Below the pieces are notes generated by a model. The model was given only the letters and a program-made list of their open reading frames with translations. It was not told the DNA's origin and did not search any database. Of a DNA stretch of 18,002 nt, positions 5,295 to 18,002 are shown in pieces (positions within the stretch are counted from its first letter, which is position 1; each line of letters begins with the position of its first letter). Position numbers and translations under genes: made by a program. The DNA is from an uncultured Dorea sp. (lineage in GTDB: Bacteria > Bacillota > Clostridia > Lachnospirales > Lachnospiraceae), in assembly GCA_948844705.1 (NCBI GenBank), contig CAQNVT010000206.1, positions 1 to 18,002 of the forward strand. Reading direction: 5' to 3'.

Positions 5295-7700
5295 TTATCC
5301 TTTCTCTGTCTCTGCCTGACACAATGCATCCGCCTCATCCTCACAGCCAAAAATGATCCCGTATACTTTAATCCACTCGTTTCGTCCTTTTTTCGTTTTT
5401 TCCAGAGAAGAACGATCGACAAACAACGGGATATCCAATTCGTCTAAGTACTCGGCTGCCTCTATATATTTTTCTAAATCCGCTTCACCGTCTTTTGCCG
5501 GAAGAATCTCCGCGGGCATGACGGCCAGGTCACATTTTGCTTTGACAAACGCTTTATATTTCATATTATTATATGTACCGCCAAATGTAATCTTTTTATC
5601 CTGAAAAAGTTTCTGTACATTTTCCGTCTCACATTCCTCCTCCTTCATACCCAGCAGGGCAATATTTTCTAATTGTCCCATGTCATCCATCCACTGGAGT
5701 GCATCCCGGGACGCTACATACGCATGAAAGGATTCGCCCGACTCTTTATCCGGCTGTCTGATTACCACCATTTCCTTGTCAAGCCCTGCCGGAATCTCTG
5801 CATCGTACGGTACGACCAGATACCGGAGAATCTCTTTGCCGTACAGCTTAAGGTCCTTATCTATATCTACGCCAAGATCAATCTCTATGCAGGTAATGCC
5901 GCCTTCATACTTAAAAATCTTATAATACTCGGCCTCCTCTGCCTTCGTCTCTTCTGCGAATGTAAGTCCGGCAATCTTCGGCGCTTCCTTGCTTAATTCT
6001 GTCGCCGACAGCTTACCTGCTGCCGCCTGCTCCGAGGCATCGCCGCCTGACGCACCCTCTATATATACAAAAATACTGTATATAATCTCATGAGCCGCCG
6101 ACATCCTTGTCGTACACCCAATAATCGTATTGTTCTGATTGAGCTGCACCGGTATCTCAAAGGTTGAAGTACCCGCCGTATTCACGCCGTAATATGTGCT
6201 CCCGTCCGCCTTGACATAGCTGTATGCACCGCTGCCAAAAACAATTGTTGCGTAGGCCTGCCCGCCTCTGACCACAACCTTCGGACAGCTTATGGAAACT
6301 CTTCCTGTTCCTCCCGAGAAGCTGAATTGGTCCGGAGTATAGGTTCCGTCTGCCAGATTTATCGAGCTGTTAACACCGGCCGTGCTTCCGCCGACGGTTG
6401 CGCTCCATGAAGAATTATTGCTTCCCGTACCTCCGCCCTGATTTCCGGTGCCGCTTCCGGTATTGCCTGTACTGCCGCCCTGATTTCCGGTATTACTGCC
6501 CTGATTTTCTCCTCCCAGCGAGATGAGTGTATCCTTCTTAAACGTCAGGGTCCGGTCGTACCATACTTTATTTTTCGTAGAATACGCCGCAACCGCAATC
6601 GGAGCATCGATGCTTTCCAAATTCAGAGTATAAGTATATTTACCATTCTTATCTGCCGCAAACGGTATCCATTCCGACCGGGCCGCACCTGCCGCTTCCA
6701 CGGCTGTTCCGAGATACAGGTATCCATAGCCCGTTCCGCTTAAGGTAATCACTGCGGAAATTTTCTTGCTCTTTACCGTCAGCGTACAATCTGTCACTCT
6801 GAACATAGCCGCGCTGGAATCTACTCCGATAGAGTATTTCCCGTCCTTTAACATGGAGGCGCCTGGTTTTTCATCCCCCGGCTTATTATCACCCGGTTTA
6901 TTATCGCCCGGTTTATCATTATCCTCCTTATCATTTCCGGTATCTTCCGAAATAGAAATCGTTATCTGATAATCAACCCAGTGAGGATCGCTCATAGCCG
7001 TCGTATAGCCGCTGATATCCGTTATTCCGTTGATCTTAACCGGCACCTCTGCCTGAGCCTTTCCGTCCACAACCGACATTTCATATTCGATGCAGCCGAC
7101 TTTTATCCTTGTATAATTTTTACTACTGAATTGGATAATTCCATATGCCTTTCCACCTGCAACTCTTACTCCGCCGCATGTAATCTTTACCTTGCCGGTT
7201 CCTCCGCTATAACTGAACTGACCCTCCCCGAGCACGTAATTCCCGTCGGCAAGTGTGGTGCTGTTATCGACCGGCGCCTGTTCGGTTCCGGACTGAGCAG
7301 GTTCCTCCGACTGAAGCTCCAAAGGTCCGGCTTTTTCCTCCTGTGTTCCCGGAGATACCGATTCTGCCGAACTGCCGGACACTGCTTCCTCCCCGGCCGG
7401 CTTCTCACCTTCTGCAGGCTGCTGCACCTCCTCCGCAGATGTCTGCTCTTCTTCTGCAGGCATCTGCTCCTCCTCCGCAGGCTCTTTAACCTCTGCAGGC
7501 GGTTGCTCCTCTTCTCCCGGCAGCTGCTCTTCCTCTGCGGGCATTTGCCCCGTCTCTGCAGGCATTTGCTCCTCCTGTATGATTTCCGGCGTCGGTGCCG
7601 CTTCCTCTGCTGATACGTCTATACCGCATCCTGCCGCACAAGATATCAGCATGGCCGCTGTCAGCAGCCCTGACAGTCCTTTTCGCATCCACATTTTCAT
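5295..7700 (-). CDS. Large surface lipoprotein: repeat stalk, three NEAT-like modules and an orphan binding-protein N-lobe; probable corrinoid receptor
   Basis: First gene after the cobalamin riboswitch; 801 residues from the ATG at 7700. That start is chosen because GAAGG lies 5 bases upstream and AAAGGAG 11; the GTG at 7712 touches the latter. Numbered from 7700: a signal peptide with lipobox LISC near 18-21 (or AAGC just after), an acidic Pro/Glu/Gln repeat (about 42-104), module 1 (149-249), a GDNKPGDNKPG linker, module 2 (284-389), a Gly/Ser/Asn linker, module 3 (448-548), then residues 566-801. Modules 1 and 3 are clearly related (LADG-Y, FS-GGTG, TTxMS near their ends). All three resemble NEAT-type Ig-fold ligand-binding domains, though I cannot confirm the family. 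The last ~235 residues match only the N-lobe of the next gene's protein and stop at EWIKVYGII plus a short acidic tail. Capture and hand-over of corrinoids at the surface is inferred. Confidence 0.85.
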   Translation of the reverse strand: MKMWMRKGLSGLLTAAMLISCAAGCGIDVSAEEAAPTPEIIQEEQMPAETGQMPAEEEQLPGEEEQPPAEVKEPAEEEQMPAEEEQTSAEEVQQPAEGEKPAGEEAVSGSSAESVSPGTQEEKAGPLELQSEEPAQSGTEQAPVDNSTTLADGNYVLGEGQFSYSGGTGKVKITCGGVRVAGGKAYGIIQFSSKNYTRIKVGCIEYEMSVVDGKAQAEVPVKINGITDISGYTTAMSDPHWVDYQITISISEDTGNDKEDNDKPGDNKPGDNKPGDEKPGASMLKDGKYSIGVDSSAAMFRVTDCTLTVKSKKISAVITLSGTGYGYLYLGTAVEAAGAARSEWIPFAADKNGKYTYTLNLESIDAPIAVAAYSTKNKVWYDRTLTFKKDTLISLGGENQGSNTGNQGGSTGNTGSGTGNQGGGTGSNNSSWSATVGGSTAGVNSSINLADGTYTPDQFSFSGGTGRVSISCPKVVVRGGQAYATIVFGSGAYSYVKADGSTYYGVNTAGTSTFEIPVQLNQNNTIIGCTTRMSAAHEIIYSIFVYIEGASGGDASEQAAAGKLSATELSKEAPKIAGLTFAEETKAEEAEYYKIFKYEGGITCIEIDLGVDIDKDLKLYGKEILRYLVVPYDAEIPAGLDKEMVVIRQPDKESGESFHAYVASRDALQWMDDMGQLENIALLGMKEEECETENVQKLFQDKKITFGGTYNNMKYKAFVKAKCDLAVMPAEILPAKDGEADLEKYIEAAEYLDELDIPLFVDRSSLEKTKKGRNEWIKVYGIIFGCEDEADALCQAETEKG
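7389..7577 (-). repeat. Degenerate Pro/Glu/Gln heptad-like coding repeat
   Basis: Inside the surface lipoprotein gene, units of the form MPAEEEQ, LPGEEEQ, MPAEEEQ and QPAEGEK recur about every 6-10 residues, encoded by related TCTGCAGGC/CTCCTC-rich DNA on the plus strand. It forms an extended, strongly acidic stalk that would hold the binding modules away from the membrane. Such tracts can vary in copy number between strains. Confidence 0.7.
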
Positions 7701-7806
7701 AAATTCCTTCACTCCTTTGCCTTTTTAATATATGCCAGCCATATCTTTGTCTTAGAACACACTTTCACCGATTAGATTGCGCACATACTGGGCGCACATA
7801 AAGAAT

Positions 7807-7835
7807 ATGCCTGCTTTCTTTCTGAAAACAGGCAT
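7807..7835 (-). promoter_or_regulatory. GC-containing hairpin in the leader, downstream of the riboswitch
   Basis: On the minus-strand RNA, AUGCCUGUUUUC (7824-7835) pairs with GAAAGCAGGCAU (7807-7818), a 12-bp stem with one G-U pair and a 5-base loop. It follows the A/T-rich hairpin at 7842-7865 and precedes the first start codon by about 105 bases. It is followed by a U-rich but not continuous tract, so it may be a second terminator or an RNA-stability element. Confidence 0.45.
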
Positions 7836-7839
7836 CACC

Positions 7840-7865
7840 AAAAAACTATGAAAACTCATAGTTTT
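7840..7865 (-). terminator. Candidate riboswitch-controlled terminator
   Basis: The minus-strand RNA folds AAAACUAUGA against UCAUAGUUUU (10 bp, 4-base loop), and the right arm runs into a string of six U. It lies 46 bases after the riboswitch closing stem and well before the gene, the normal place for a cobalamin-riboswitch expression platform. The stem is AU-rich, so termination strength is uncertain. Confidence 0.5.
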
Positions 7866-7911
7866 AATCTCTTTACATGAAACCACTTTCGTCGGAAGCT
7901 GTTCATCAACA

Positions 7912-8086
7912 TTTCCAGCAGGTTTCCTGGCTTACAGATCATCGCCTGGCCGCACCTTCTCACATATCTTTATGCAATGGCATCCCGCAGCCGCGCTCCC
8001 TGCTCACAGTGACCGGATCGCTCAGGACTTACACCTGATTCCCTTTTAACCTGACAGAAGCAATAGCTTCTGCCCGGCACTGGAAA
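7912..8086 (-). ncRNA. Cobalamin (adenosylcobalamin-type) riboswitch
   Basis: The minus strand carries the class hallmarks in order. The closing stem pairs TTTCCAG (8080-8086) with CTGGAAA (7912-7918). GGTTAAAAGGGAA is followed by CAGGTGTAAGTCCTGAGC, then CACTGTGAGCAGGGAGC, a GATGCCATTGC hairpin, and the B12 box AAGCCAGGAAACCTGCT at 7917-7933. The L5 loop CCATT (7976-7980) can pair with AGTGG (7883-7887) in the loop of a hairpin just downstream (7879-7890), the position of the L5-L13 kissing contact. It precedes the surface lipoprotein and transporter genes and should reduce their expression when cobalamin is plentiful. It shows directly that this operon belongs to corrinoid metabolism. Confidence 0.95.
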
Positions 8087-8114
8087 CTTTTCATATATTT
8101 AACATATTTGTATG

Positions 8115-8143
8115 ATTATAACAAATCTCCGGATCAATTACAA
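8115..8143 (-). promoter_or_regulatory. Promoter of the cobalamin-uptake operon
   Basis: On the minus strand TTGTAA (8138-8143), 17 bases, then TATAAT (8115-8120). The predicted start near 8108 is about 20 bases before the riboswitch closing stem. No other comparable hexamer pair is present between the serA stop and the riboswitch. Confidence 0.7.
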
Positions 8144-8168: not shown

Positions 8169-9332
8169 TTATCCGATCACCCGGACTCTTAATACTTCTT
8201 TTACATTTTCAAGATCCTGCGCCACTCTTTCCGGCACCTTGGAATCTATATCAATCATTGTATAGGCATATTTGCCTTTGCTTTTATTTGTCATATCAGC
8301 AATATTCATGTTATCATCTGCGAGGATCTTCGTAAACTGTCCGATCATGTTCGGAACATTCCTGTGCAGCAGAAGGATCCTCGTATTTTCTCCCCGCATT
8401 CCCATATCGCAGTTGGGATAATTTACGGAATTGTGAATATTGCCGTTCTCCAGGTAGTCTTTTACCTGCCTGACCGCCATCTTTGCGCAGTTATCCTCTG
8501 CCTCCTCTGTCGAAGCTCCGAGATGAGGAATTACGATCGCCCCTTTTACCCCGGCAATCACCGGTGTCGGGAAATCGGTCACATAATGCTTTACTTTTCC
8601 GGACAGAAGCGCATCCACCATGGCCTCCTCATCTACCAGTACGTCTCTTGGAAAGTTAAGCATGACAACACCGTCCTTCATCAGGCTGACGGCTCCTTTA
8701 TCGATCATGCCCTTCGTGCTGTCCATGGCCGGCACGTGGATCGTGATATAATCGCAGTCCTTGTAGATTTCATCTGCCGTCTTGGCATGGTGGATGCTTC
8801 TCGACAGTCTCCATGCAGAGTCTACGGATACATACGGATCATAGCCGTATACGTCCATGCCCAGGTTTGCAGCCGCATTGGCAACCAGCACTCCGATAGC
8901 GCCAAGGCCGATCACTCCGAGCTTCTTTCCCTCCAGCTCGCATCCGGCAAATGCCTTCTTTGCCTTCTCCGCATCCCTGGCAATATTGCCGTCCTCTTCA
9001 TTCTCCTGCACCCAGTTGATTCCTCCGATAATATCTCTGGACGCAAGAAGCATTCCGGCAAGCACAAGCTCCTTTACGCCGTTGGCATTCGCCCCCGGCG
9101 TGTTAAACACGACGATACCTTCCTCCGCGCACCGGTCAAGAGGAATGTTGTTTACCCCGGCTCCGGCTCTTCCGATCGCCTTAAGCTTCCTTCCGAATTC
9201 CATCTCATGCATTACGGCGCTTCTTACAAGAATCGCATCCGCCTTATCCGGCGTGCTGACCGGCGCATATTCTGCGGTAAATTTTTCTAACCCTACGTCC
9301 GAGATCGGATTTAAACAGTGATAGCTATACAT
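8169..9332 (-). CDS. serA: D-3-phosphoglycerate dehydrogenase, short ACT-domain type
   Basis: SerA oxidises 3-phosphoglycerate to 3-phosphohydroxypyruvate, the first step of serine synthesis. The 387-residue protein has GRAGAGVNNIPLD near the substrate loop, the NAD-binding GLGAIG at 142-147, the catalytic-region R229 in NFPRDV, H270 in PHLGAST and a C-terminal ACT domain (about 315-387, LLLHRNVPNMIGQFTKIL) for allosteric control. The canonical block DVFPTEP between R and H reads DFPTP (253-257), so the usual catalytic Glu is absent from that position. I believe this is shared by a clade of anaerobe SerA proteins rather than a defect here. It starts 2 bases after the serC stop, with GAGGAG inside serC. 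No clear terminator follows before the cobalamin operon promoter. Confidence 0.93.
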   Translation of the reverse strand: MYSYHCLNPISDVGLEKFTAEYAPVSTPDKADAILVRSAVMHEMEFGRKLKAIGRAGAGVNNIPLDRCAEEGIVVFNTPGANANGVKELVLAGMLLASRDIIGGINWVQENEEDGNIARDAEKAKKAFAGCELEGKKLGVIGLGAIGVLVANAAANLGMDVYGYDPYVSVDSAWRLSRSIHHAKTADEIYKDCDYITIHVPAMDSTKGMIDKGAVSLMKDGVVMLNFPRDVLVDEEAMVDALLSGKVKHYVTDFPTPVIAGVKGAIVIPHLGASTEEAEDNCAKMAVRQVKDYLENGNIHNSVNYPNCDMGMRGENTRILLLHRNVPNMIGQFTKILADDNMNIADMTNKSKGKYAYTMIDIDSKVPERVAQDLENVKEVLRVRVIG

Positions 9333-9334
9333 AA

Positions 9335-10417
9335 TTACAGATTCTCCTCCTCAAACCTTTTCATAAATTCCACCAGAGCCTTAACACCCTCGGCCGGCAT
9401 TGCATTATAAATACTTGCACGCATACCGCCTACCGTACGGTGTCCCTTAAGGCTCACAAGCCCGGCTTCCTTCGCCTCTTTTACAAATTTTGCTTCCAGC
9501 TCCTCATCTCCGATGACAAAGGGAACATTCATAAGCGAACGGTCCTTCTTAACGACCGTTCCCCGGAACATTTTGCTCTGATCCAGGTAGTCATAGAGAA
9601 TTTTTGCCTTTTTCTCGTTATGCTCCTTCATCGCCACAAGGCCGCCCTGCTTTTTCAGCCATTTGAACACCTTGCCGCAAATGTAAATGCCGTATGCCGG
9701 CGGAGTATTATAAAGAGAGCCCGCATCTGCATGTGTCTTATACTTCAGCATGGTCGGAGTTCCCGGAAGCACCTCGTCTGTGATCAGGTCCTTTCTGATG
9801 ATCACAATAACCGTTCCGGCCGGCCCCACATTTTTTTGCACGCCGCCGTGAATGACTCCGTATTTCGTCACGTCATGGGGCTCCGATAAGAAGCAGGAGG
9901 ACACGTCAGCAACCAGCGTCTTTCCCTTCGTATCCGGAAGCTCCTTGTATTTCGTTCCGTAGATCGTATTATTTTCACAGATATATACATAGTCTGCATC
10001 CTCGGAAACCGGAAGATCCGAAACATTCGGAATGTAGGAAAATGTCTTGTCGGCAGACGATGCTATCACATTGACCTTGCCGTATTTTTCTGCCTCCTGC
10101 GCCGCCTTTTTCGCCCACTGTCCCGTCACGATATAATCCGCGACGCCGTTTTTCATCAGATTCATCGGAATCATGGCAAACTGCTGGGAAGCGCCGCCCT
10201 GCAAAAACAGCACCTCGTAGTCGTCCGGGATTTTCATAAGCTCACGGAGATCCGCCTCGGCCTCGTCAATAATATTCTGGAAATCCTTTGAGCGGTGACT
10301 CATTTCCATCACGGACATACCGGTTCCTCTGTAGTCTAACATCTCCTGTGCTGCTTCCCTTAATACTTCCTCCGGCAATACTGCCGGTCCTGCTGAAAAA
10401 TTATACACTCTGCTCAT
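9335..10417 (-). CDS. serC: Phosphoserine aminotransferase
   Basis: SerC is a PLP enzyme that transfers the amino group of glutamate to 3-phosphohydroxypyruvate, the product of SerA encoded directly downstream; the family can also act in pyridoxal phosphate synthesis. The 360-residue protein starts MSRVYNFSAGPAVLPEEVL, with MSHRSKDF, LFLQGGASQQFAMIPMNL (phosphate/PLP loop), VADVSSCFLSEP and HGGVQKNVGPAG, where K195 is the expected Schiff-base lysine. HRTVGGMRASIYNA near the end is the usual substrate-binding Arg region. I chose ATG at 10417 because GGAGG lies 7 bases upstream; the ATG at 10423 is only 1 base from it. The gap to ilvB is 24 bases. Confidence 0.95.
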   Translation of the reverse strand: MSRVYNFSAGPAVLPEEVLREAAQEMLDYRGTGMSVMEMSHRSKDFQNIIDEAEADLRELMKIPDDYEVLFLQGGASQQFAMIPMNLMKNGVADYIVTGQWAKKAAQEAEKYGKVNVIASSADKTFSYIPNVSDLPVSEDADYVYICENNTIYGTKYKELPDTKGKTLVADVSSCFLSEPHDVTKYGVIHGGVQKNVGPAGTVIVIIRKDLITDEVLPGTPTMLKYKTHADAGSLYNTPPAYGIYICGKVFKWLKKQGGLVAMKEHNEKKAKILYDYLDQSKMFRGTVVKKDRSLMNVPFVIGDEELEAKFVKEAKEAGLVSLKGHRTVGGMRASIYNAMPAEGVKALVEFMKRFEEENL

Positions 10418-10441
10418 TTTCATTCCTCCACTTCTATCTGG

Positions 10442-12127
10442 CTAATTGTTTTCCTTCTCCTGTAAATCCTTCTCGTCAAACACCTCACGGATTGATGCTC
10501 CCGGAGCCACCATCGGCCATACCTTGTCATCACAGTCGATCTGACAGTCGATCACCACCGGCCGGTTAAGCGTGAGCGCTTCCGCAAATGCTTCCGCGAA
10601 CTCCTCCTTTGTCGCCGCGCGGATACCGACAGCGCCCATGGCCTCTGCAAGCTTCACAAAGTCCACGGCATCATTCAGCACCGTCGCAGAATATCTCTGT
10701 CCGTAGAACAGATTCTGCCACTGGCGCACCATACCGAGCACATGGTTGTTGATCACGACCTGGATCACCGGAATATTATGGCGTACCGCCGTCGCAATCT
10801 CATTCATATTCATGCGGAAGCATCCGTCTCCGGCAATATTAACCACCGTTTTATCCGGCATACCCGTCTTCGCTCCGAGAGACGCGCCAAGGCCGTAGCC
10901 CATCGTTCCGAGACCTCCTGAGGTCAGGAAGGTTCTCGGCTTCGTATACTTATAATACTGTGCCGCCCACATCTGATGCTGTCCTACCTCTGTGACAATC
11001 ACCGCCTCACCCTTCGTCTGGCGGTAAATCTCCTCCACGACATAAGGCCCTGTCAAAATATCCGGATGATAGGAAAGGGGATACCTCTCTTTATAGTCCA
11101 TAATTGTCCGGATCCATTCCGTATGATTCTGCTGCGGAAGTCTTTCATTCAAAATCTCAAGAATTACTTTAATGTCGCCGACAACACCTTCCGTGATCAG
11201 CACATTTTTATTCATCTCCGCCTCATCCACATCAAACTGCAGAATCTTCGCATTGTCTGCAAATTTTTTTGCGTTACCGGTCACGCGGTCGCTGAACCTT
11301 GCCCCAACCACGATCAGAAGATCACATTCGCTGACTCCGTAGTTGGAGGTTTTCGTCCCATGCATGCCGAGCATTCCCGTATAAAGCGGGTCCGTTCCGG
11401 GAAATGCGCCCTTACCCATCAGACTGTCGGTTACCGGTGCGTCCACCCTCTTTACAAATGTACGAAGCTCCTCGCTTGCTCCTGAGAGCACGGCTCCGCC
11501 GCCCACGAAAATGTAAGGCTTCTCTGCCTTCTCAATCATGGACAGTGCTTTTGCAATATCTTCCTCACACACTGTTTTCTTCGGCTTTACCTCCGGGATC
11601 TCTGCCCGTTCGTACTCCGCCCTGTTGGCCGTAACATCCTTCGGTATATCGATGAGAACCGGTCCCGGGCGTCCCTTCTTTGCGATAACAAAAGCCTTCC
11701 TTATCGTCTCCGCCAGATCACTTACATCCTTTACAATATAATTATGCTTTGTGATCGGCATTGTGATTCCTGCGATGTCAATCTCCTGAAAGCTGTCCTT
11801 TCCAAGAAGCGCCACGCCTACATTACAGGTGATCGCCACGACCGGAATCGAATCCATATACGCGGTTGCGATCCCGGTAACAAGATTGGTTGCTCCCGGT
11901 CCGCTTGTCGCAAAGCACACGCCCACCTTGCCGGTTGCTCTCGCATAACCGTCCGCAGCGTGAGCCGCTCCCTGCTCGTGCGATGTAAGAATATGGGTTA
12001 TCTCATCACTATGCTTATATAATTCATCATATACATTCAAAATTGCCCCGCCCGGATATCCGAATACGGTATCCACGCCCTGCTCCTTCAGGCATTCAAT
12101 AACAATTTCTGATCCTGTCAGCTGCAT
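10442..12127 (-). CDS. ilvB: Acetolactate synthase, large (catalytic) subunit
   Basis: This thiamine diphosphate enzyme condenses two pyruvates to acetolactate, or pyruvate and 2-oxobutyrate to acetohydroxybutyrate, in valine, leucine and isoleucine synthesis. The 561-residue length is standard. VFGYPGGAILNVYDEL is followed by the catalytic E51 in SHEQGAAHAADGYAR, then ATSGPGATNLVTG, the FAD-binding central domain, and the diphosphate/metal motif GDGCFRMNMNEIATA with NNHVLGMVRQWQ. These distinguish biosynthetic AHAS from other pyruvate-ThDP enzymes. AAGGAG lies 11 bases before ATG 12127. It follows ilvD by 27 bases and precedes serC. No small regulatory subunit gene (ilvN/ilvH) is in the window; it may lie elsewhere. 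Confidence 0.95.
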   Translation of the reverse strand: MQLTGSEIVIECLKEQGVDTVFGYPGGAILNVYDELYKHSDEITHILTSHEQGAAHAADGYARATGKVGVCFATSGPGATNLVTGIATAYMDSIPVVAITCNVGVALLGKDSFQEIDIAGITMPITKHNYIVKDVSDLAETIRKAFVIAKKGRPGPVLIDIPKDVTANRAEYERAEIPEVKPKKTVCEEDIAKALSMIEKAEKPYIFVGGGAVLSGASEELRTFVKRVDAPVTDSLMGKGAFPGTDPLYTGMLGMHGTKTSNYGVSECDLLIVVGARFSDRVTGNAKKFADNAKILQFDVDEAEMNKNVLITEGVVGDIKVILEILNERLPQQNHTEWIRTIMDYKERYPLSYHPDILTGPYVVEEIYRQTKGEAVIVTEVGQHQMWAAQYYKYTKPRTFLTSGGLGTMGYGLGASLGAKTGMPDKTVVNIAGDGCFRMNMNEIATAVRHNIPVIQVVINNHVLGMVRQWQNLFYGQRYSATVLNDAVDFVKLAEAMGAVGIRAATKEEFAEAFAEALTLNRPVVIDCQIDCDDKVWPMVAPGASIREVFDEKDLQEKENN

Positions 12128-12154
12128 ATTTTCATCTTCTCCTTGCCTGTTTCC

Positions 12155-13828
12155 TTATCTGCTCTTTGGTATCTCCAGGATCGCCCCTCTGTTTCCTGAT
12201 GTTACCATAGACGCATACCTTGCCAGATAACCGGTCGTAACCTTCGGCTCTCTCGGCTCCCATTTTTCTCTTCTCTTTGCAAGCTCTTCCTCTGATACGT
12301 CAAGCTCAAGCTTAAGACCCGGAATGTCGATCTTAATGATATCTCCCTCTTCCACAAGCGCAATCGGACCGCCGACCGCCGCCTCCGGTGATACATGACC
12401 GATGGACGCGCCTCTGGATGCGCCGCTGAAACGTCCGTCTGTAATAAGCGCCACGCTGGAGCCAAGGCCCATTCCTGCAATCGCAGAGGTCGGATTCAGC
12501 ATCTCGCGCATACCGGGGCCTCCTTTCGGTCCCTCATAGCGGATCACTACCACATCGCCTGCCACGATCTTTCCTCCCTTAATGGCATCGATCGCGTCCT
12601 CCTCACAGTCAAATACTCTTGCCGGGCCTTCATGTACAAGCATCTCTTCTACAACAGCAGAGCGCTTCACAACACTTCCGTCCGGAGCAAGATTGCCCTT
12701 TAGAACCGCAAGTCCGCCGGTCCGGCTGTATGGATTATCGATCGGACGTATTACCTCCGGATTCCGGTTAACGGCCCCTTCTATGTTCTCTCCTACGGTC
12801 CTTCCCGTGACCGTCATACAATCCGTATGAATGAGATTCTTCTTATTTAACTCTGCCATTACCGCATAGACGCCGCCGGCCTCATTCAGATCCTCCATAT
12901 AGGTCGGCCCTGCCGGTGCAAGGTGGCAGAGATTCGGAGTCTTCTCGCTGATACCGTTTGCAAAATCGATCTCAAAATCCATGCCGATCTCATGTGCGAT
13001 CGCCGGAAGATGAAGCATACTGTTGGTAGAACATCCAAGCGCCATATCCACAGTCAGCGCATTTAGGACCGCCTTCTCCGTCATAATGTCTCTCGGACGG
13101 ATATTTTTCTCCCAGAGCTTCATTACCTGCATACCTGCCTGCTTTGCCAGCCGGATCCTTGCCGAATATACCGCCGGAATTGTTCCGTTTCCGCCAAGTC
13201 CCATGCCAAGCACCTCTGTAAGGCAGTTCATACTGTTTGCCGTATACATACCGGAGCAGGATCCGCAGGTCGGGCATACCTTATTTTCAAATTCACACAG
13301 GTCCTCATCGGACATGGTTCCCGCCGCATTGGCTCCCACTGCCTCAAACATACTGGAAAGACTTCTCTTCTCGCCCTTCACGTGTCCCGCCAGCATCGGG
13401 CCGCCGCTTACAAAAATGGTCGGAACATTAATTCTTGCCGCCGCCATCAGAAGCCCCGGAACATTCTTATCACAGTTCGGTACCATGACAAGTGCGTCAA
13501 ACTGGTGTGCCAGCGCCATCGCCTCCGTAGAATCCGCGATCAGGTCTCTCGTGACAAGAGAATATTTCATTCCGATATGCCCCATGGCAATTCCGTCGCA
13601 TACGGCGATCGCCGGAAATACGATCGGCGTTCCGCCTGCCATGGCAACGCCCTGCTTTACTGCGTCCACGATCTTATCCAGATTCATATGCCCCGGCACG
13701 ATCTCATTATAAGAGCTTACGATCCCGACTAACGGTCTCTCCATCTCCTCCTTCGTAAGTCCCAGCGCATTAAATAAGGAACGGTGCGGCGCCTGCTGCT
13801 TTCCCTTCGTAACTGTATCACTTCTCAT
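12155..13828 (-). CDS. ilvD: Dihydroxy-acid dehydratase
   Basis: IlvD dehydrates 2,3-dihydroxyisovalerate and 2,3-dihydroxy-3-methylvalerate to the keto acids leading to valine/leucine and isoleucine. The 557-residue protein has the IlvD/Edd layout with iron-sulfur ligand candidates C77 (AVCDGI), C119 (PNCDKN) and C191 within [19 protein letters not shown]. Later come [14 protein letters not shown], the [12 protein letters not shown] block and [21 protein letters not shown]. The last blocks favour IlvD over 6-phosphogluconate dehydratase, and neighbouring leuB and ilvB agree. GGAGG lies upstream of ATG 13828, 17 bases after leuB stops. Confidence 0.96.
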
Positions 13829-13845
13829 AGTTCGTTATCCTCCAA

Positions 13846-14940
13846 TCAATTTATATATTCCGATATCAAATCTCCCATTTTTGCCGTACCGACCTTTTCC
13901 TTACCCTCGGACATAATATCCCCGGTGCGGTAGCCTGCCTTAAGAACCTCTGCCACGGCATTCTCGATCGCATCTGCCTCCTTGTCAAGATCAAAGCTGA
14001 ACCTTAGCATCATTGCCGCCGACAGAATCGTTGCGATCGGGTTTGCGATTCCTTTCCCTGCAATATCCGGTGCGGAGCCGCCGCTTGGTTCATAAAGCCC
14101 GAACTTTGTCTCATTCAGGCTGGCGCTTGCAAGCATTCCGATAGACCCCGTCACCATACTCGCCTCATCGGATAAAATATCCCCAAACATATTCTCTGTA
14201 AGGATGACGTCAAACTGCTTCGGGTCCTTTACAAGCTGCATCGCACAATTATCCACCAGCATATGCTCCAGGGTAACCTCCGGATACTCCGTCGCAACCT
14301 CCTCTACAACCTTTCGCCAGAGCCTGGAGGAATCCAGCACATTTGCCTTGTCTACGCTCGTCACTTTTTTCCTGCGCTTCATGGCAATGTCAAAGCCGCG
14401 CTTCGCGATCCGGCGGATCTCTCCCTCATTATATGTAAGAGAATCGTAGGCCGTCAGAACACCGCCCTCCTCTACCGTCCTTCTCTCACCGAAATATAAA
14501 CCGCCCGTAAGCTCCCGCATGATCATCATGTCAAAGCCGCCTCCGGTGATCTCCTCCTTAAGCGGACATGCACCCTTAAGCTCGTCATAGAGAATCGCCG
14601 GGCGTAAATTTGCAAACAGGTTCAGCGCTTTCCGGATCTTAAGAAGCCCCGCCTCCGGCCTTTTTGAAGGCTCCAGCTTATACCACGGAGACGTCTTCGC
14701 ATCCCCTCCGATGGATCCCATCAGGACTGCATCACAGGCCTTTGCCGCTTCAATCGTCTCGTCTGTCAGCGGAATACCATGTACATCGATGGACGCGCCT
14801 CCCATTAAAAGCTGCGTATACTCTATGGTATGCCCGTATTTATCTGCCGCTTTATCAAGGACCTTCATCGCCTCCGTTACGATCTCCGGACCGATTCCGT
14901 CCCCCTTAATCACACCGATTTTCAAATTCATGCTTCTCAT
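13846..14940 (-). CDS. leuB: 3-isopropylmalate dehydrogenase
   Basis: LeuB oxidises and decarboxylates 3-isopropylmalate with NAD to 2-oxoisocaproate, the leucine precursor. The 364-residue protein shows GDGIGPEIV, substrate-side [26 protein letters not shown] (Tyr149 expected catalytic), [15 protein letters not shown] (Lys198 catalytic), VDNCAMQL (Asp230), FGDILSDEA (metal-binding Asp254/258) and the NAD loop [20 protein letters not shown]. The IPMDH-type NAD loop argues against isocitrate dehydrogenase. First gene of the five-gene operon. ATG 14940 has AGAAGG 4 bases upstream; an in-frame ATG at 14931, giving MNLKIGV, is an alternative start. leuA, leuC and leuD are not in the window. Confidence 0.95.
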
Positions 14941-14962
14941 CTTCCCTTCTCATTTAAACCTT

Positions 14963-14980
14963 GTACTAACTGTTCAGTAC
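14963..14980. promoter_or_regulatory. Imperfect 18-bp dyad in the leuB leader, possible operator
   Basis: GTACTAACTGTTCAGTAC has matching GTACT/AGTAC arms (six of nine pairs) and lies about 15-32 bases after the predicted transcription start of leuB. A partly overlapping AACTGT (14969-14974)/ACAGTT (14985-14990) pair is also present. This is a plausible repressor site; no regulator can be named. Confidence 0.35.
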
Positions 14981-15001
14981 CTTCACAGTTACGCTTGTAC
15001 C

Positions 15002-15030
15002 ATAATATCGCATTTTATGCCATGTTTCAA
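15002..15030 (-). promoter_or_regulatory. Promoter of the leuB-ilvD-ilvB-serC-serA operon
   Basis: Minus strand TTGAAA (15025-15030), 17 bases, TATTAT (15002-15007). The leader before the leuB ATG is only about 55 bases. That is too short for a T-box or attenuator, so control is more likely at initiation. Confidence 0.65.
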
Positions 15031-15032
15031 GA

Positions 15033-15061
15033 CTTTAATTTACTAAACTAATAAATTAAAG
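15033..15061. repeat. AT-rich perfect inverted repeat at the deoD 3' end
   Basis: CTTTAATTTA (15033-15042) and TAAATTAAAG (15052-15061) form a 10-bp stem with a 9-base loop. The repeat includes the deoD stop codon and abuts the leuB -35. It may separate deoD transcription from the leuB promoter, but it has almost no GC pairs and no clear U-tract, so a terminator role is weak. Confidence 0.35.
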
Positions 15062-15754
15062 CTCCAACGCTATTTCCATCATCTGATTAAATCCGGTCTG
15101 GCGTTCCTCAGCGCTCAGGGAAGCTTCTTTATACAAATGGTCGGAGACAGTCAGGATACAGAGAGCCTTTTTCCCGGCTCTCGCCGCGTTCATATAAAGG
15201 CCGGCCGCCTCCATCTCTACGGCGAGCACGCCCATTCGTTTCCATCTGTCGTTGAAATCCTCCATATCATTGTAAAATACGTCCGAGGACAAAATGTTGC
15301 CTACCTTTACGTTTGCGCCCTTTGCCCGGGCAGTATTTACCGCCCTCTCCAGCAGGTCATAGTCGGGAATCGGTGCAAAGGTCCCCGGAAGCCCGTACTG
15401 GTCCGCGTAATTGGAGTTGGTGCAGGCGCCCATTCCGATCACGATATCCATGACGTTTACATCCTCCTGCATCGCTCCGGCAGAGCCGATGCGGATAATG
15501 CTGTCTACATCATAAAAATGATACAGCTCATAGCTGTAGATTCCTATGGATGGTATCCCCATGCCGCCTCCCATGACGGAAAGCTCTTTTCCCTTATAGG
15601 TGCCTGTGTATCCGAACATATTTCTTACCGTGTTAAAGCATTTTACATTTTCGAGATATGTATCCGCAATGTATTTTGCACGGAGCGGATCGCCCGGCAT
15701 CAGTACTGTCTTTGCAATATCTCCTTTTTCTGCCGCATTATGTGGTGTTCCCAT
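15056..15754 (-). CDS. deoD: Purine nucleoside phosphorylase, DeoD (hexameric) type
   Basis: DeoD cleaves purine (deoxy)nucleosides with phosphate to free base and (deoxy)ribose 1-phosphate in nucleoside salvage. The 232-residue protein begins MGTPHNAAEKGDIA with H5, then MPGDPLRAKYIA (phosphate-binding Arg), VMGGGMGIPSIGIYSYEL, IRIGSAGA (phosphate), the AVEMEAAGLY block (ribose-binding Glu) and TVSDHL (catalytic Asp). This is the bacterial hexamer class, not the trimeric PunA class. ATG 15754 is chosen because AAGGAGG lies 8 bases upstream and the family starts there; the longer open frame to 15796 adds an unrelated LRRDYTDNKEEKK-type extension that overlaps the leader. It has its own promoter and does not obviously belong to the leuB operon. 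Confidence 0.95.
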   Translation of the reverse strand: MGTPHNAAEKGDIAKTVLMPGDPLRAKYIADTYLENVKCFNTVRNMFGYTGTYKGKELSVMGGGMGIPSIGIYSYELYHFYDVDSIIRIGSAGAMQEDVNVMDIVIGMGACTNSNYADQYGLPGTFAPIPDYDLLERAVNTARAKGANVKVGNILSSDVFYNDMEDFNDRWKRMGVLAVEMEAAGLYMNAARAGKKALCILTVSDHLYKEASLSAEERQTGFNQMMEIALEL

Positions 15755-15786
15755 CTTCTTTTCCTCCTTATTGTCCGTATAATCTC

Positions 15787-15803
15787 TGCGGAGCATTCCC
15801 GCA
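15787..15803 (-). promoter_or_regulatory. Small GC hairpin in the deoD leader
   Basis: The minus strand reads TGCGGGAATGCTCCGCA, a 5-6 bp stem 32 bases before the start codon. A near-identical dyad precedes the next gene upstream (16972-16987). It may stabilise the leader or bind a protein. Confidence 0.4.
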
Positions 15804-15813
15804 TTTTGTTATT

Positions 15814-15842
15814 ATTATAACATCTTTTTTCCTAAATGAAAA
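15814..15842 (-). promoter_or_regulatory. Promoter of deoD
   Basis: Minus strand TTTTCA (15837-15842), 17 bases, TATAAT (15814-15819). The predicted start near 15807 gives a leader of about 50 bases. The promoter begins within 2 bases of the acyltransferase stop codon, so that gene has no room for a separate terminator. Confidence 0.6.
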
Positions 15843-15843
15843 T

Positions 15844-16953
15844 TTATTTGCCTTCCTGACACAAGGATTCTATGTACCTTTCAATATTGCCGCAATGCTG
15901 TTTTACCTTTAATATATTAAAAATTTCCAGCCTGACGCGGTCGATCAAAGCGCCTGCAAATCCGATTACCAGTGCGGTAATCAAGACAGCTAAAACCATT
16001 AAAAACGGATTCAGCTCTATATAATGCCGGAAGGCCCCTACAATAAATGCTTCTCTGATCAGCGGCTCTTCATGAAAGAGATAGATACCGAAAGAAACCG
16101 GCACAAAGAAACGTATCAATCGCTTAAGCCCCTCCCTGCAGTCCAGCCTGGAAAAGAACAGAAGCAAAAAAACAGAACAGGACACGATTGTAGGAGATAC
16201 ATAGCTGATCAGATAATTACCGTCCCCAGGTGTTCCGGTCTTTTTGAAATTCACAAACTCTATAACAATTTTTGACATCCACGTCAGAATCACACAGAAA
16301 AAATATCCCAGGAGATTTTTCTTATTATTATAGGAAAGCGCACCCGCATATTTTTTCATATAAGCGCCCGCAATATACAGTACGGAAAGCCACAAAAAGC
16401 TGAAGCCATTACCCGTAAACGGAAAATCCGACTGAAACAGAACCGGCAATACTGAAAAAACGACAAACATCGTAACAAGCATTTTTTTCATCACTGCCCT
16501 GTCAAAAGTATCTAACATAAGATTATAAAATGGCATGAAAAAAAACAGGCAGAAATATGCCGTGAAATACCAGTATGTGTTAAACGCAAACGGAAAGGCC
16601 GCATGAAACAGCGCCTGCGGACCAATAAGCTCCGGCCGGTAAACATAAAATACTGCCGTAGTAATAAGTGTATAAAAGATCACTTGCAGATACAAATACA
16701 ATAATTTTGAATATTTATGCCTTTTCCCATACCCCACATAACCGGAGATCAGCGCATAGGAATTCACGGCACAGTAGGCTCCCACTGCAAGAAGCCATGC
16801 TGTCTCATGATTTACAGTCAATGCATCTGTCGCGTCCCAGATGCTGCCATGCCCCAATATATGGAGAATAAGAACCATGAACATGGAAATAATTCTGAAC
16901 AGGCCGATCCCATAATTGTATTCTGTATTTTTATCTAAATCTGTATTTCCCAT
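15844..16953 (-). CDS. Acyltransferase family 3 membrane protein
   Basis: A 369-residue polytopic protein with about ten hydrophobic segments. Near the N-terminus, GLFRIISMFMVLILHILGHG contains the R-x10-H arrangement typical of acyltransferase-3 (OatA/WecH/NodX-like) enzymes. YWYFTAYFCLFFFMPFYN, FPFTGNGFSFLWLSVLYIAGAYMKKY and FVPVSFGIYLFHEEPLIR near the C-terminus also fit. Such proteins O-acetylate or otherwise acylate cell-surface polysaccharides, teichoic acids or peptidoglycan from the membrane. There is no extra periplasmic SGNH domain, so it is the membrane-only form, like those in polysaccharide clusters, although no glycan genes adjoin it. The ribosome binding site is weak (AGGTTG) and I see no convincing promoter. 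The acceptor is unknown. Confidence 0.85.
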   Translation of the reverse strand: MGNTDLDKNTEYNYGIGLFRIISMFMVLILHILGHGSIWDATDALTVNHETAWLLAVGAYCAVNSYALISGYVGYGKRHKYSKLLYLYLQVIFYTLITTAVFYVYRPELIGPQALFHAAFPFAFNTYWYFTAYFCLFFFMPFYNLMLDTFDRAVMKKMLVTMFVVFSVLPVLFQSDFPFTGNGFSFLWLSVLYIAGAYMKKYAGALSYNNKKNLLGYFFCVILTWMSKIVIEFVNFKKTGTPGDGNYLISYVSPTIVSCSVFLLLFFSRLDCREGLKRLIRFFVPVSFGIYLFHEEPLIREAFIVGAFRHYIELNPFLMVLAVLITALVIGFAGALIDRVRLEIFNILKVKQHCGNIERYIESLCQEGK

Positions 16954-16971
16954 TTTTCAACAACCTGATAC

Positions 16972-16987
16972 TGCGGAATATCCCGCA
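16972..16987 (-). promoter_or_regulatory. Small GC hairpin before the acyltransferase gene
   Basis: The minus strand reads TGCGGGATATTCCGCA, 5 bp paired, 18 bases before the start codon. It resembles the deoD leader dyad at 15787-15803. A perfect CGGCCGGCCG palindrome sits a little further upstream (17015-17024). Confidence 0.4.
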
Positions 16988-17063
16988 CGCTGTAATCCTT
17001 TCATTTTATAAGTACGGCCGGCCGCTATTATCATATACCTGCCGTTCATAAACCTCCATGCAC

Positions 17064-17111
17064 AAAAAGCAGGAAAAAAGAGAACCCTGCATCTGATCTC
17101 CATTTCCTGCT
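17064..17111 (-). terminator. Intrinsic terminator downstream of yajC
   Basis: On the minus strand AGCAGGAAA (17103-17111) pairs with TTTCCTGCT (17068-17076), 9 bp with a large loop that contains its own GAGA/TCTC pairing, and is followed by a T-run (17064-17068). It ends the yajC transcript about 35 bases after the stop codon. Confidence 0.75.
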
Positions 17112-17144
17112 CTTTAAAAATCTGTTTTAATCTGCGGCAAGTCC

Positions 17145-17453
17145 CTACTCCGCGGATGCCTTCTCGATCTGTGCCACTGCTGCCTTCTGCATCGGAATAC
17201 GGCAGTTCTTGTTGTTGCCAAACTCTACAATGATATCATTATCTTGAATATCAATGATCACACCATAAAAACCGCTTGTTGTAAGCACGGTATCTCCGAC
17301 TTCCATATCAGCGATCATCGCCTGTATTCTCTTCTGCTCCTTTTTCTGCGGTCTGATAAAAATGAACCAGAAACCTCCGAAAATCACTGCGTATACAACC
17401 AGTAATAACACCCAGCTCATTCCGCCCTGCGCCTGTGCTGCTAATGTAAACAT
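17145..17453 (-). CDS. yajC: Preprotein translocase accessory subunit YajC
   Basis: YajC is a small single-pass membrane protein that associates with SecDF and SecYEG during protein export. The 102-residue product has a short N-terminus (MFTLAAQAQGG), one membrane helix (about 12-34, WVLLLVVYAVIFGGFWFIFI) and the family signature IRPQKKEQKR immediately after it. A soluble beta domain follows (GDTVLTTSGFYGVI, the common G-D-x-V-x-T-x-x-G motif). ATG 17453 is chosen because AGGAGG lies 9 bases upstream; a longer frame to 17477 runs through that site. It follows tgt, the usual arrangement. The secD/secF genes that often come next are absent here, because a terminator and then an acyltransferase gene follow. 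Confidence 0.93.
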   Translation of the reverse strand: MFTLAAQAQGGMSWVLLLVVYAVIFGGFWFIFIRPQKKEQKRIQAMIADMEVGDTVLTTSGFYGVIIDIQDNDIIVEFGNNKNCRIPMQKAAVAQIEKASAE

Positions 17454-17491
17454 ACAATTCTTCCTCCTAAATCTCATTAAACACTATTGCT

Positions 17492-17520
17492 ATCATACAG
17501 GATATTACCCTTTTCATCAA
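17492..17520 (-). promoter_or_regulatory. Promoter of yajC
   Basis: Minus strand TTGATG (17515-17520), 17 bases, TATGAT (17492-17497), placed between the tgt stop codon and the yajC ribosome binding site. yajC can thus be transcribed independently of tgt. Confidence 0.6.
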
Positions 17521-17545
17521 GTAATTTTCCCTAATTCATGCAAAT

Positions 17546-18002
17546 TTAATATTTCCCGCCCGTCACCTTCCGAAGCTTTTCCTCTTTATATTCCTTATAT
17601 CTGCCCTCTTCGATCGCTCCGCGTATCTCTGTCATCATCGTATTATAAAAATACAGATTATGAAGCACGCACAGCCTCATGCCGAGCATCTCCTTCGCCT
17701 TTAAGAGATGCCTGATATAGGCCCTTGAATAGGTACGGCATACGGGACAGCCGCAGCCTTCCTCGATCGGGCGCGCATCCAGCTCGTACTGTGCGTTGAA
17801 AAGATTCAGCTTCCCTTCATTTGTATAGACATGCCCGTGCCTTCCGTTGCGGCTCGGATATACACAGTCGAAAAAGTCCACTCCCCGGTCTACCGCTTCC
17901 AGTATATTTGCCGGAGTTCCTACTCCCACATCGCGCTGGTAACCATCGAGATAAACGACTGAAAGCTTTTTTTCAGACTCATCCCAGAACATACAGTCCC
18001 CC
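17546..18002 (-). CDS. tgt: Queuine tRNA-ribosyltransferase (Tgt), C-terminal part, 5' end cut or chimeric
   Basis: Tgt exchanges guanine for a queuine precursor at the wobble position of certain tRNAs. From GVGTPANILEAVDRGVDFFDCV the match is clear. The Asp in FFDCV is the expected nucleophile, PSRNGRHG the guanine-34 recognition loop, CGCPVC with C and H further on (RLCVLHNLYF) the zinc site, and the C-terminal helices end ...EIRGAIEEG. The ~25 residues encoded by 17928-18002 (DCMFWDESEKKLS, then VVYLDGYQRDV) are not what the family has before GVGTP, where P-x-YLM is expected. None of the three minus-strand frames supplies it. The frame is open to the window edge. Either recombination or an assembly fault near 17928 is likely. 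Confidence 0.85.
   Translation of the reverse strand, partial: GDCMFWDESEKKLSVVYLDGYQRDVGVGTPANILEAVDRGVDFFDCVYPSRNGRHGHVYTNEGKLNLFNAQYELDARPIEEGCGCPVCRTYSRAYIRHLLKAKEMLGMRLCVLHNLYFYNTMMTEIRGAIEEGRYKEYKEEKLRKVTGGKY

Follow-up and report, generated by a model that had tools for sequence, protein, structure and literature searches.

Corrinoids are contested among the species of the gut. To our knowledge, the NEAT fold is known only for heme and hemoglobin, and BtuF as known has neither a NEAT-like receptor nor a duplicated half domain. In heme-binding NEAT domains, a YxxxY motif is located on the last strand (PMC4143258). Because only 165 of the 343 NEAT domains surveyed in 2014 have this motif, its absence does not exclude a domain from the family; a clostridial NEAT group also lacks it, and the authors left an alternate role in anaerobes open (PMC4143258). 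For vitamin B12, surface binders described in gut bacteria include BtuG, BtuH and the DUF4465 protein BtuJ of Bacteroides (PMC6143338, PMC8941943, PMC13398666), and a small share of DUF4465 homologs belongs to Bacillota (PMC13398666). Here, we analyze an operon from an uncultured Dorea sp., a member of the Lachnospiraceae, which have been called the commonest Gram-positive bacteria of the gut (PMC12934955). It lies in a stretch of 18,002 nt (contig CAQNVT010000206.1, assembly GCA_948844705.1), hereafter the window, and places a gene for a putative surface receptor with NEAT-like modules behind a cobalamin riboswitch.

We propose, with a probability of roughly two in three, that this system captures corrinoids (the B12 family) for Gram-positive gut bacteria by means of an Isd-like relay. 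The proposal draws on the gene order, the association of the modules with riboswitches, the predicted fold of one module type (A) and its homology to the other (B), a conserved HxxxY motif, a half binding-protein domain, and fusions of modules to binding proteins. It suggests an unrecognised Gram-positive route by which Lachnospiraceae and related gut bacteria may catch B12. On the minus strand, the order is promoter-like site, cobalamin riboswitch, terminator-like hairpin, receptor, binding protein, permease and ATPase:

8143-8115, minus strand: promoter-like site TTGTAA-17-TATAAT with TG ahead of the -10 element, matching 10 of 12 consensus positions
8099-7900, minus strand: cobalamin riboswitch aptamer (RF00174, 111.7 bits, E 1.1e-27)
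7835-7807, minus strand: intrinsic-terminator-like hairpin of 12 bp with a T-rich tail, between the aptamer and the receptor gene
7700-5295, minus strand: receptor gene (P0001, 801 aa), ATG start at 7700, alternative GTG start at 7712
7700-7626, minus strand: signal sequence with possible lipobox LISC (residues 18-21) or AAGC (22-25), read from sequence
7607-7257, minus strand: acidic stalk by composition, residues 32-148, 29% D+E
7256-6954, minus strand: module 1, type B by sequence, residues 149-249, with HWVDY at 240-244 (6983-6969)
6851-6534, minus strand: module 2, type A, residues 284-389, predicted NEAT fold
6359-6057, minus strand: module 3, type B by sequence, residues 448-548, with HEIIY at 537-541 (6092-6078)
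5990-5316, minus strand: half periplasmic-binding-protein domain, N-lobe only, residues 571-795, from PF01497 (Peripla_BP_2) and identity to the operon's binding protein
5288-4056, minus strand: complete binding protein in BtuF-like position, N-terminal LGSGC by eye (PF01497, 120.8 bits)
4059-3016, minus strand: FecCD/BtuC-family permease (PF01032, 257.9 bits)
3013-1928, minus strand: ABC ATPase with a C-terminal extension (PF00005)

The first-pass annotation of this DNA had placed a cobalamin riboswitch directly ahead of the receptor gene, and Rfam bears this out: RF00174 is the single match in the window, exceeds its gathering threshold of 31.5 bits and covers the full-length aptamer (model positions 1-189), against a background of 42 riboswitch matches (40 over cut-off) per 29.9 Mb. 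The association is not confined to the window. Of 7993 candidates scored in a protein search, 3449 were relatives (the top 120 were listed), and a scan of genome contigs identified 153 that encode a relative. The best 80 loci, picked by protein alone and not by riboswitch, were retained, and all counts out of 80 refer to them; many belong to Clostridia of the gut and rumen, among them Coprococcus comes, Faecalicatena contorta, Fusicatenibacter saccharivorans, Blautia glucerasea and [Ruminococcus] faecis. Alignment A1 was used solely in two contig scans because, judged from conserved columns, it had placed module 1 against A modules. A scan of viral contigs gave 20 pattern matches and no relatives.

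All 80 loci were searched with a covariance model (R1) built from 27 sequences, namely the window and 26 regularly spaced members of the 51 box-bearing loci; since the model was built from them, these 26 and the window (153.1 bits) match it by construction. A riboswitch lies upstream of the module gene, on the same strand, at 56/80 loci (55 in the main count plus L050, which was lost to the motif filter), and within 414 nt of the module open reading frame (ORF) in 32 of the 55. Where at least 3 kb of upstream DNA is available, it is found at 49 of 53 loci (exceptions: L047, L065, L073, L074); among the 24 loci without one, 12 start within 3 nt of a contig end, and in another 8 the upstream DNA amounts to 0.2-1.7 kb. 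In nine named genomes searched with Rfam, the receptor riboswitch was over cut-off in all nine, with coordinates matched by eye.

A separate sample gave a similar picture. Alignment A3 matches 77 of 200 genomes of the Coprococcus comes family, and 44 of these, chosen before the riboswitch search (30 shorter or split matches and 14 strongest or long ones), were checked with Rfam. In 38 of the 44 (26/30 and 12/14), one or more module genes are preceded, on their own contig and strand, by a riboswitch no more than about 3.5 kb away. Among the six misses, the gene is near a contig end in G012, G072 and G150, the upstream DNA of G062 and G075 is short and shows no riboswitch, and G067 has 4.7 kb upstream with no riboswitch by Rfam or by our own model. 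Some module matches in positive genomes are also without a riboswitch (G162:C12, G129:C62). Taken together, these sequence data support a tie of the modules to corrinoid metabolism well beyond one locus.

As a control, the canonical NEAT profile PF05031 was found above cut-off in 20 of 295 genomes of the order. In none of the 20 was a riboswitch near these loci, the nearest being on the opposite strand at a distance of about 31 kb, and only 11 of them have a riboswitch over cut-off. One genome, G036, carries both kinds apart: the NEAT clusters are on contigs 49 and 60, neither of which has a cobalamin riboswitch, and contig 29 carries the riboswitch and the modules together with an ORF that resembles CbiK by eye. 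The cluster on contig 49 (L092) adjoins an IsdE-like ORF (by eye); on contig 60 (L091), the NEAT ORFs read like leucine-rich-repeat proteins. These loci bear on the reading that the operon is a heme or iron system whose cobalamin riboswitch is incidental, which the NEAT fold of module A would favor. The window's binding protein is not of the IsdE heme type by TIGR03659, although its weak match (28.8 bits, cut-off 298.65) and the nearest PDB sequence in the transporter comparisons, Lmo2184, lean the same way. However, the riboswitch is tied to the modules in dozens of genomes and is found near none of the canonical NEAT loci, and in G036 the NEAT cluster without a riboswitch is kept on a contig apart from the riboswitch-module operon; we consider the heme or iron reading very improbable.

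The same annotation had described three NEAT-like modules on an acidic stalk. The stalk and three modules, at about residues 149-249, 284-389 and 448-548, hold. Judged by sequence, the modules are of two types, arranged B-A-B, and are not three copies of one. Modules 1 and 3 share 44 identities over 107 columns (score 166; none of 200 shuffles exceeded 9), whereas module 2 is faint in pairwise comparison (score -1 against module 1, shuffle maximum -2; -9 against module 3, shuffle maximum 0). At the profile level the link is clear: hhalign gave A-B homology a probability of 96% and a score of 52; the 12 controls did not go beyond 4.1% and 19.4. Structure predictions, which covered modules A+B and the L071 fusion, gave module A the eight-strand Ig-like NEAT fold. 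A relationship of the modules to NEAT is thus supported, for A by the predicted fold and for B by the profile link to A.

The assignment to NEAT proper stood less well. In the Pfam search, PF05031 (gathering cut-off 32.8 bits) has no match in the window protein. Relatives are only marginally over it (P0006 at 37.0 and P0007 at 37.3 bits, with the best stretch in A modules; L070 at 34.5 bits; L084 at 32.8 bits, within a B module) or just miss it (P0029, P0032, L088). YxxxY is missing from the window modules, which have HWVDY and HEIIY in B and WYDR in A. As for the SXXXXY motif of the 3-10 helix, module A has SSAAMF (SXXXXF, residues 295-300) and none was seen by eye in B. Since both the PF05031 match and YxxxY are lacking, we call the window protein NEAT-like, not proven NEAT. 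A search of PDB sequences gave no match for the window protein, alignment A3 or L084, and L088 reached IsdX1 (3sik, E 0.042) with its B module; a PHROGs search gave no match.

For corrinoid binding, the B modules offer a candidate residue. Counting each distinct B module that comes last in its protein and has over 150 residues after it (usually a half or full binding-protein domain), 134 of 136 carry HxxxY. In the other B modules the His occurs in 33 of 65, and the Tyr is retained wherever its column is filled (rows gapped at the Tyr column were dropped from the HxxxY count). The His is therefore conserved mainly next to the transporter part. In the predicted model, the last strand begins at the second His, that of HEIIY. 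The HxxxY His is a candidate axial cobalt ligand, about where heme-binding NEAT domains have their Tyr. Support for placing HxxxY on YxxxY is limited to the strand position and the VIA range ends; at residue level, a profile comparison with six canonical NEAT pieces from G036, two of which overlap, failed to place it (probability 19%).

The C-terminal part of the receptor went unremarked in the first-pass annotation, as did the two module types, HxxxY, the module fusions and the chelatase discussed below. Residues ~571-795 match PF01497 at 23.1 bits, below the 27.5 cut-off and over model positions 8-117 of 235 only, and are 31% identical to the N-lobe of the same operon's binding protein (E 6e-27). 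A half-domain receptor with a separate complete binding protein is found at 59/80 loci, and a half domain with no complete separate binding protein seen at 7/80 (several at contig ends). The module is fused directly to a complete binding protein at 10/80; 3/80 have a separate binding protein and a module ORF without the half domain, and 1/80 has neither. In L058, one ORF holds A, B, the half domain and a full binding protein (by eye).

Given these fusions, hand-over from module to binding protein is the simplest reading. It has also to be set against the idea that the modules bind something other than the corrinoid, be it cell wall, glycan or a protein carrying B12, with the vitamin handled by the binding protein alone. 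The first-pass annotation had named carbohydrate-binding and purely structural families as matches that would count against corrinoid capture, and no family is over the Pfam cut-off in the window protein. The near-invariant HxxxY of B ahead of the C-terminal lobe and the direct fusions to complete binding proteins both point to ligand hand-over, and wall, glycan or carrier binding appears decidedly unlikely.

How the receptor is held at the cell is less clear. It had been read as a large lipoprotein, and LISC and AAGC are indeed present, but a simple lipobox pattern occurs in only 6 of the 78 ORFs with modules found in relatives (the pattern overlooks some, such as FGC in L058), and its status as a lipoprotein is uncertain. 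A motif scan of the window protein found no LPXT[GA] sortase anchor. Receptors without a lipobox would need docking through the half domain to stay at the cell, LPXTG having been checked in the window protein. Two variants concern the same protein. P0002, 95% identical to P0001, has an insertion in the Gly/Asn/Thr-rich linker ahead of module 3, as if the length of this linker differed between strains. In [Ruminococcus] faecis (L036:6095-8957), two overlapping ORFs, one with A2+B1 and one with the half domain, stand in place of a single receptor ORF, through either a frameshift or a real split.

The BtuFCD-type transporter expected after the receptor is in place, with a class III binding protein, a FecCD permease and an ABC ATPase together in one operon. 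The best NCBIfam model for the permease is BtuC (203.7 bits; cut-off of 334 not reached), and the ATPase scores 210.7 bits with FecE and 206.8 bits with the corrinoid ATPase (cut-off 537), both below cut-off. In this ATPase, the ABC match stops at residue 170 of 361, and the corrinoid-ATPase model spans 9-340. For the binding protein fused in L071, Vibrio cholerae BtuF ranked fifth by fold. Because B12, siderophore and heme systems are intermixed in the NCBIfam and fold rankings, the transporter families are undecisive on the ligand. Sequence nevertheless supports a BtuFCD-like transporter, and corrinoid transport is predicted.

Another feature of these operons bears on which tetrapyrrole is carried. 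Between the riboswitch and the module gene, a relative of the cobaltochelatase CbiK is encoded at 12/80 loci (L013, L015, L016, L024, L028, L030, L049, L052, L058, L070, L071, L075). In a shorter operon (L083-L090), the riboswitch is followed by CbiK, which by eye has an export signal, then by a mostly lipoprotein-like A+B protein of ~300 residues and a binding protein. Most of these operons also encode permease and ATPase, and those of L089 and L090 extend into a CobQ-type enzyme. Here, Pfam was run on the L089 CbiK and the L090 CobQ-type enzyme, and the remaining genes were named by eye. Coprococcus comes has a second cobalamin riboswitch, followed by genes for two lipoprotein-like products, CbiK (by eye) and a NEAT-like protein (PF05031 22.6 bits). 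Exported, often lipoprotein-like CbiK proteins (export by eye) stand behind cobalamin riboswitches at L013:1796-3031, L058:613-1788, L070:2269-3525, L081:124-1323, L089:5131-6363 and L090:2812-4077, named from PF06180 for L013 and L089, BLAST for L058 and L070, and by eye for L081 and L090. Apparently, then, a cobaltochelatase is located outside the cytoplasm. L024:1641-6428 encodes an exported protein of 1595 aa that contains two CbiK domains and fn3, its NEAT-like start being by eye only; L028:3881-5785 joins one CbiK and an A-type module (by profile) within a single ORF. Elsewhere (L048:690-5609, L068:689-5476, L021:4003-5862, L040:4177-5964), a further exported protein with modules is encoded after the riboswitch and before the receptor; it is perhaps an outer member of a relay.

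The corrinoid function proposed in the first-pass annotation gains from the riboswitch counts, but an exported CbiK leaves room for another ligand of the cobalt branch, such as cobalt-sirohydrochlorin, a corrin precursor or a cobalt porphyrin, with CbiK acting outside and the riboswitch sensing B12 sufficiency only. The position of CbiK in the 12 loci and the sister operons, its exported-looking N-terminus and its sharing of an ORF with an A module in L028 (and, by eye, L024) speak for such a ligand. NEAT folds bind planar porphyrins, and a cobalt-porphyrin IsdA structure is among the PDB matches listed. On the other hand, the window operon has no CbiK, its permease and ATPase score equally near corrinoid and iron-chelate transporters, and the L090 (Pfam) and L089 (by eye) operons continue to the CobQ-type enzyme of late corrinoids. 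We consider such a ligand unlikely, though less so than the other alternatives.

Under the corrinoid-capture reading, scarcity of corrinoid would leave the aptamer empty and let transcription proceed. The riboswitch is likely an OFF switch acting by termination: two terminator-like sites were found over both strands, against 0.2 expected from shuffles, and in the predicted fold an AT-rich hairpin precedes the terminator-like one (z -1.18, not significant). The promoter-like site alone is weak, since two such sites were seen in the region against 1.2 expected. The exported receptor would then span the cell wall by its acidic stalk, and the NEAT-derived modules, chiefly the B module beside the binding-protein lobe, would take the corrinoid, the HxxxY His ligating cobalt. 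The half domain may dock the receptor on the permease or pair with the binding protein, and the corrinoid would move to the complete binding protein and then, through permease and ATPase, into the cell. The remainder of the window, at 8169-17992, holds genes named by eye as serA, serC, ilvB, ilvD, leuB, deoD, an acyltransferase, yajC and tgt, none of which looks corrinoid-related.

The broader hypothesis is of a large NEAT-derived clade retargeted from heme to corrinoids, in which His-ligated B modules pass the ligand through a half-domain adaptor to BtuFCD. It would serve general B12 scavenging in gut Clostridia, Lachnospiraceae included, and many lineages would pair it with an exported cobaltochelatase acting on cobalt tetrapyrroles outside the cell; we hold the chances of this whole picture to be about even. 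If the modules bind corrinoids, the NEAT fold gains a second tetrapyrrole ligand, in a module family present in over a third of the sampled family genomes, and the system offers one testable residue, His537 in the window, and fusion proteins suited to hand-over studies.

Most subscription journals aside, the available parts of the top literature entries describe neither such a receptor nor any pairing of NEAT-like modules with cobalamin riboswitches. No full-text paper joining 'cobalamin riboswitch' and 'NEAT domain' was found, and none of those combining 'NEAT domain' and 'vitamin B12' concerns NEAT-like B12 capture by title or opening of the abstract. The words cobalamin and riboswitch were not found in the main text of PMC4143258; in the available portions, the NEAT mentions of PMC10327494 refer to S-layer proteins and PMC7689651 has no passage on exported CbiK. 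In the literature portions covered, a Gram-positive counterpart for surface B12 capture was not found apart from the small Bacillota share of DUF4465 homologs (PMC13398666).

Compared with the Bacteroides B12 binders, the window system shares the proposed B12 capture at the surface of gut bacteria, although those belong mainly to another phylum and cell envelope and have different modules; DUF4465 is absent among the window protein's Pfam matches up to E 1. The clostridial NEAT group likewise lacks YxxxY but, in the available text, heme binding is proposed for it and most of its proteins carry LPXTG (PMC4143258). With BtuFCD, the operon shares the gene order binding protein-permease-ATPase and, for the permease, BtuC as best model, whereas its genes reach no NCBIfam cut-off. 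Unlike Isd/NEAT systems, it has a cobalamin riboswitch, HxxxY in B and a half binding-protein domain on the receptor, and its receptor has no YxxxY, LPXTG or PF05031 match. Like them, it has a module with a predicted NEAT fold and a putative surface protein whose tandem Ig-like NEAT-type modules would feed a class III binding protein and a FecCD-type permease. By analogy, we class the system as a NEAT-like relay that would work in the manner of Isd and is tied to corrinoids.

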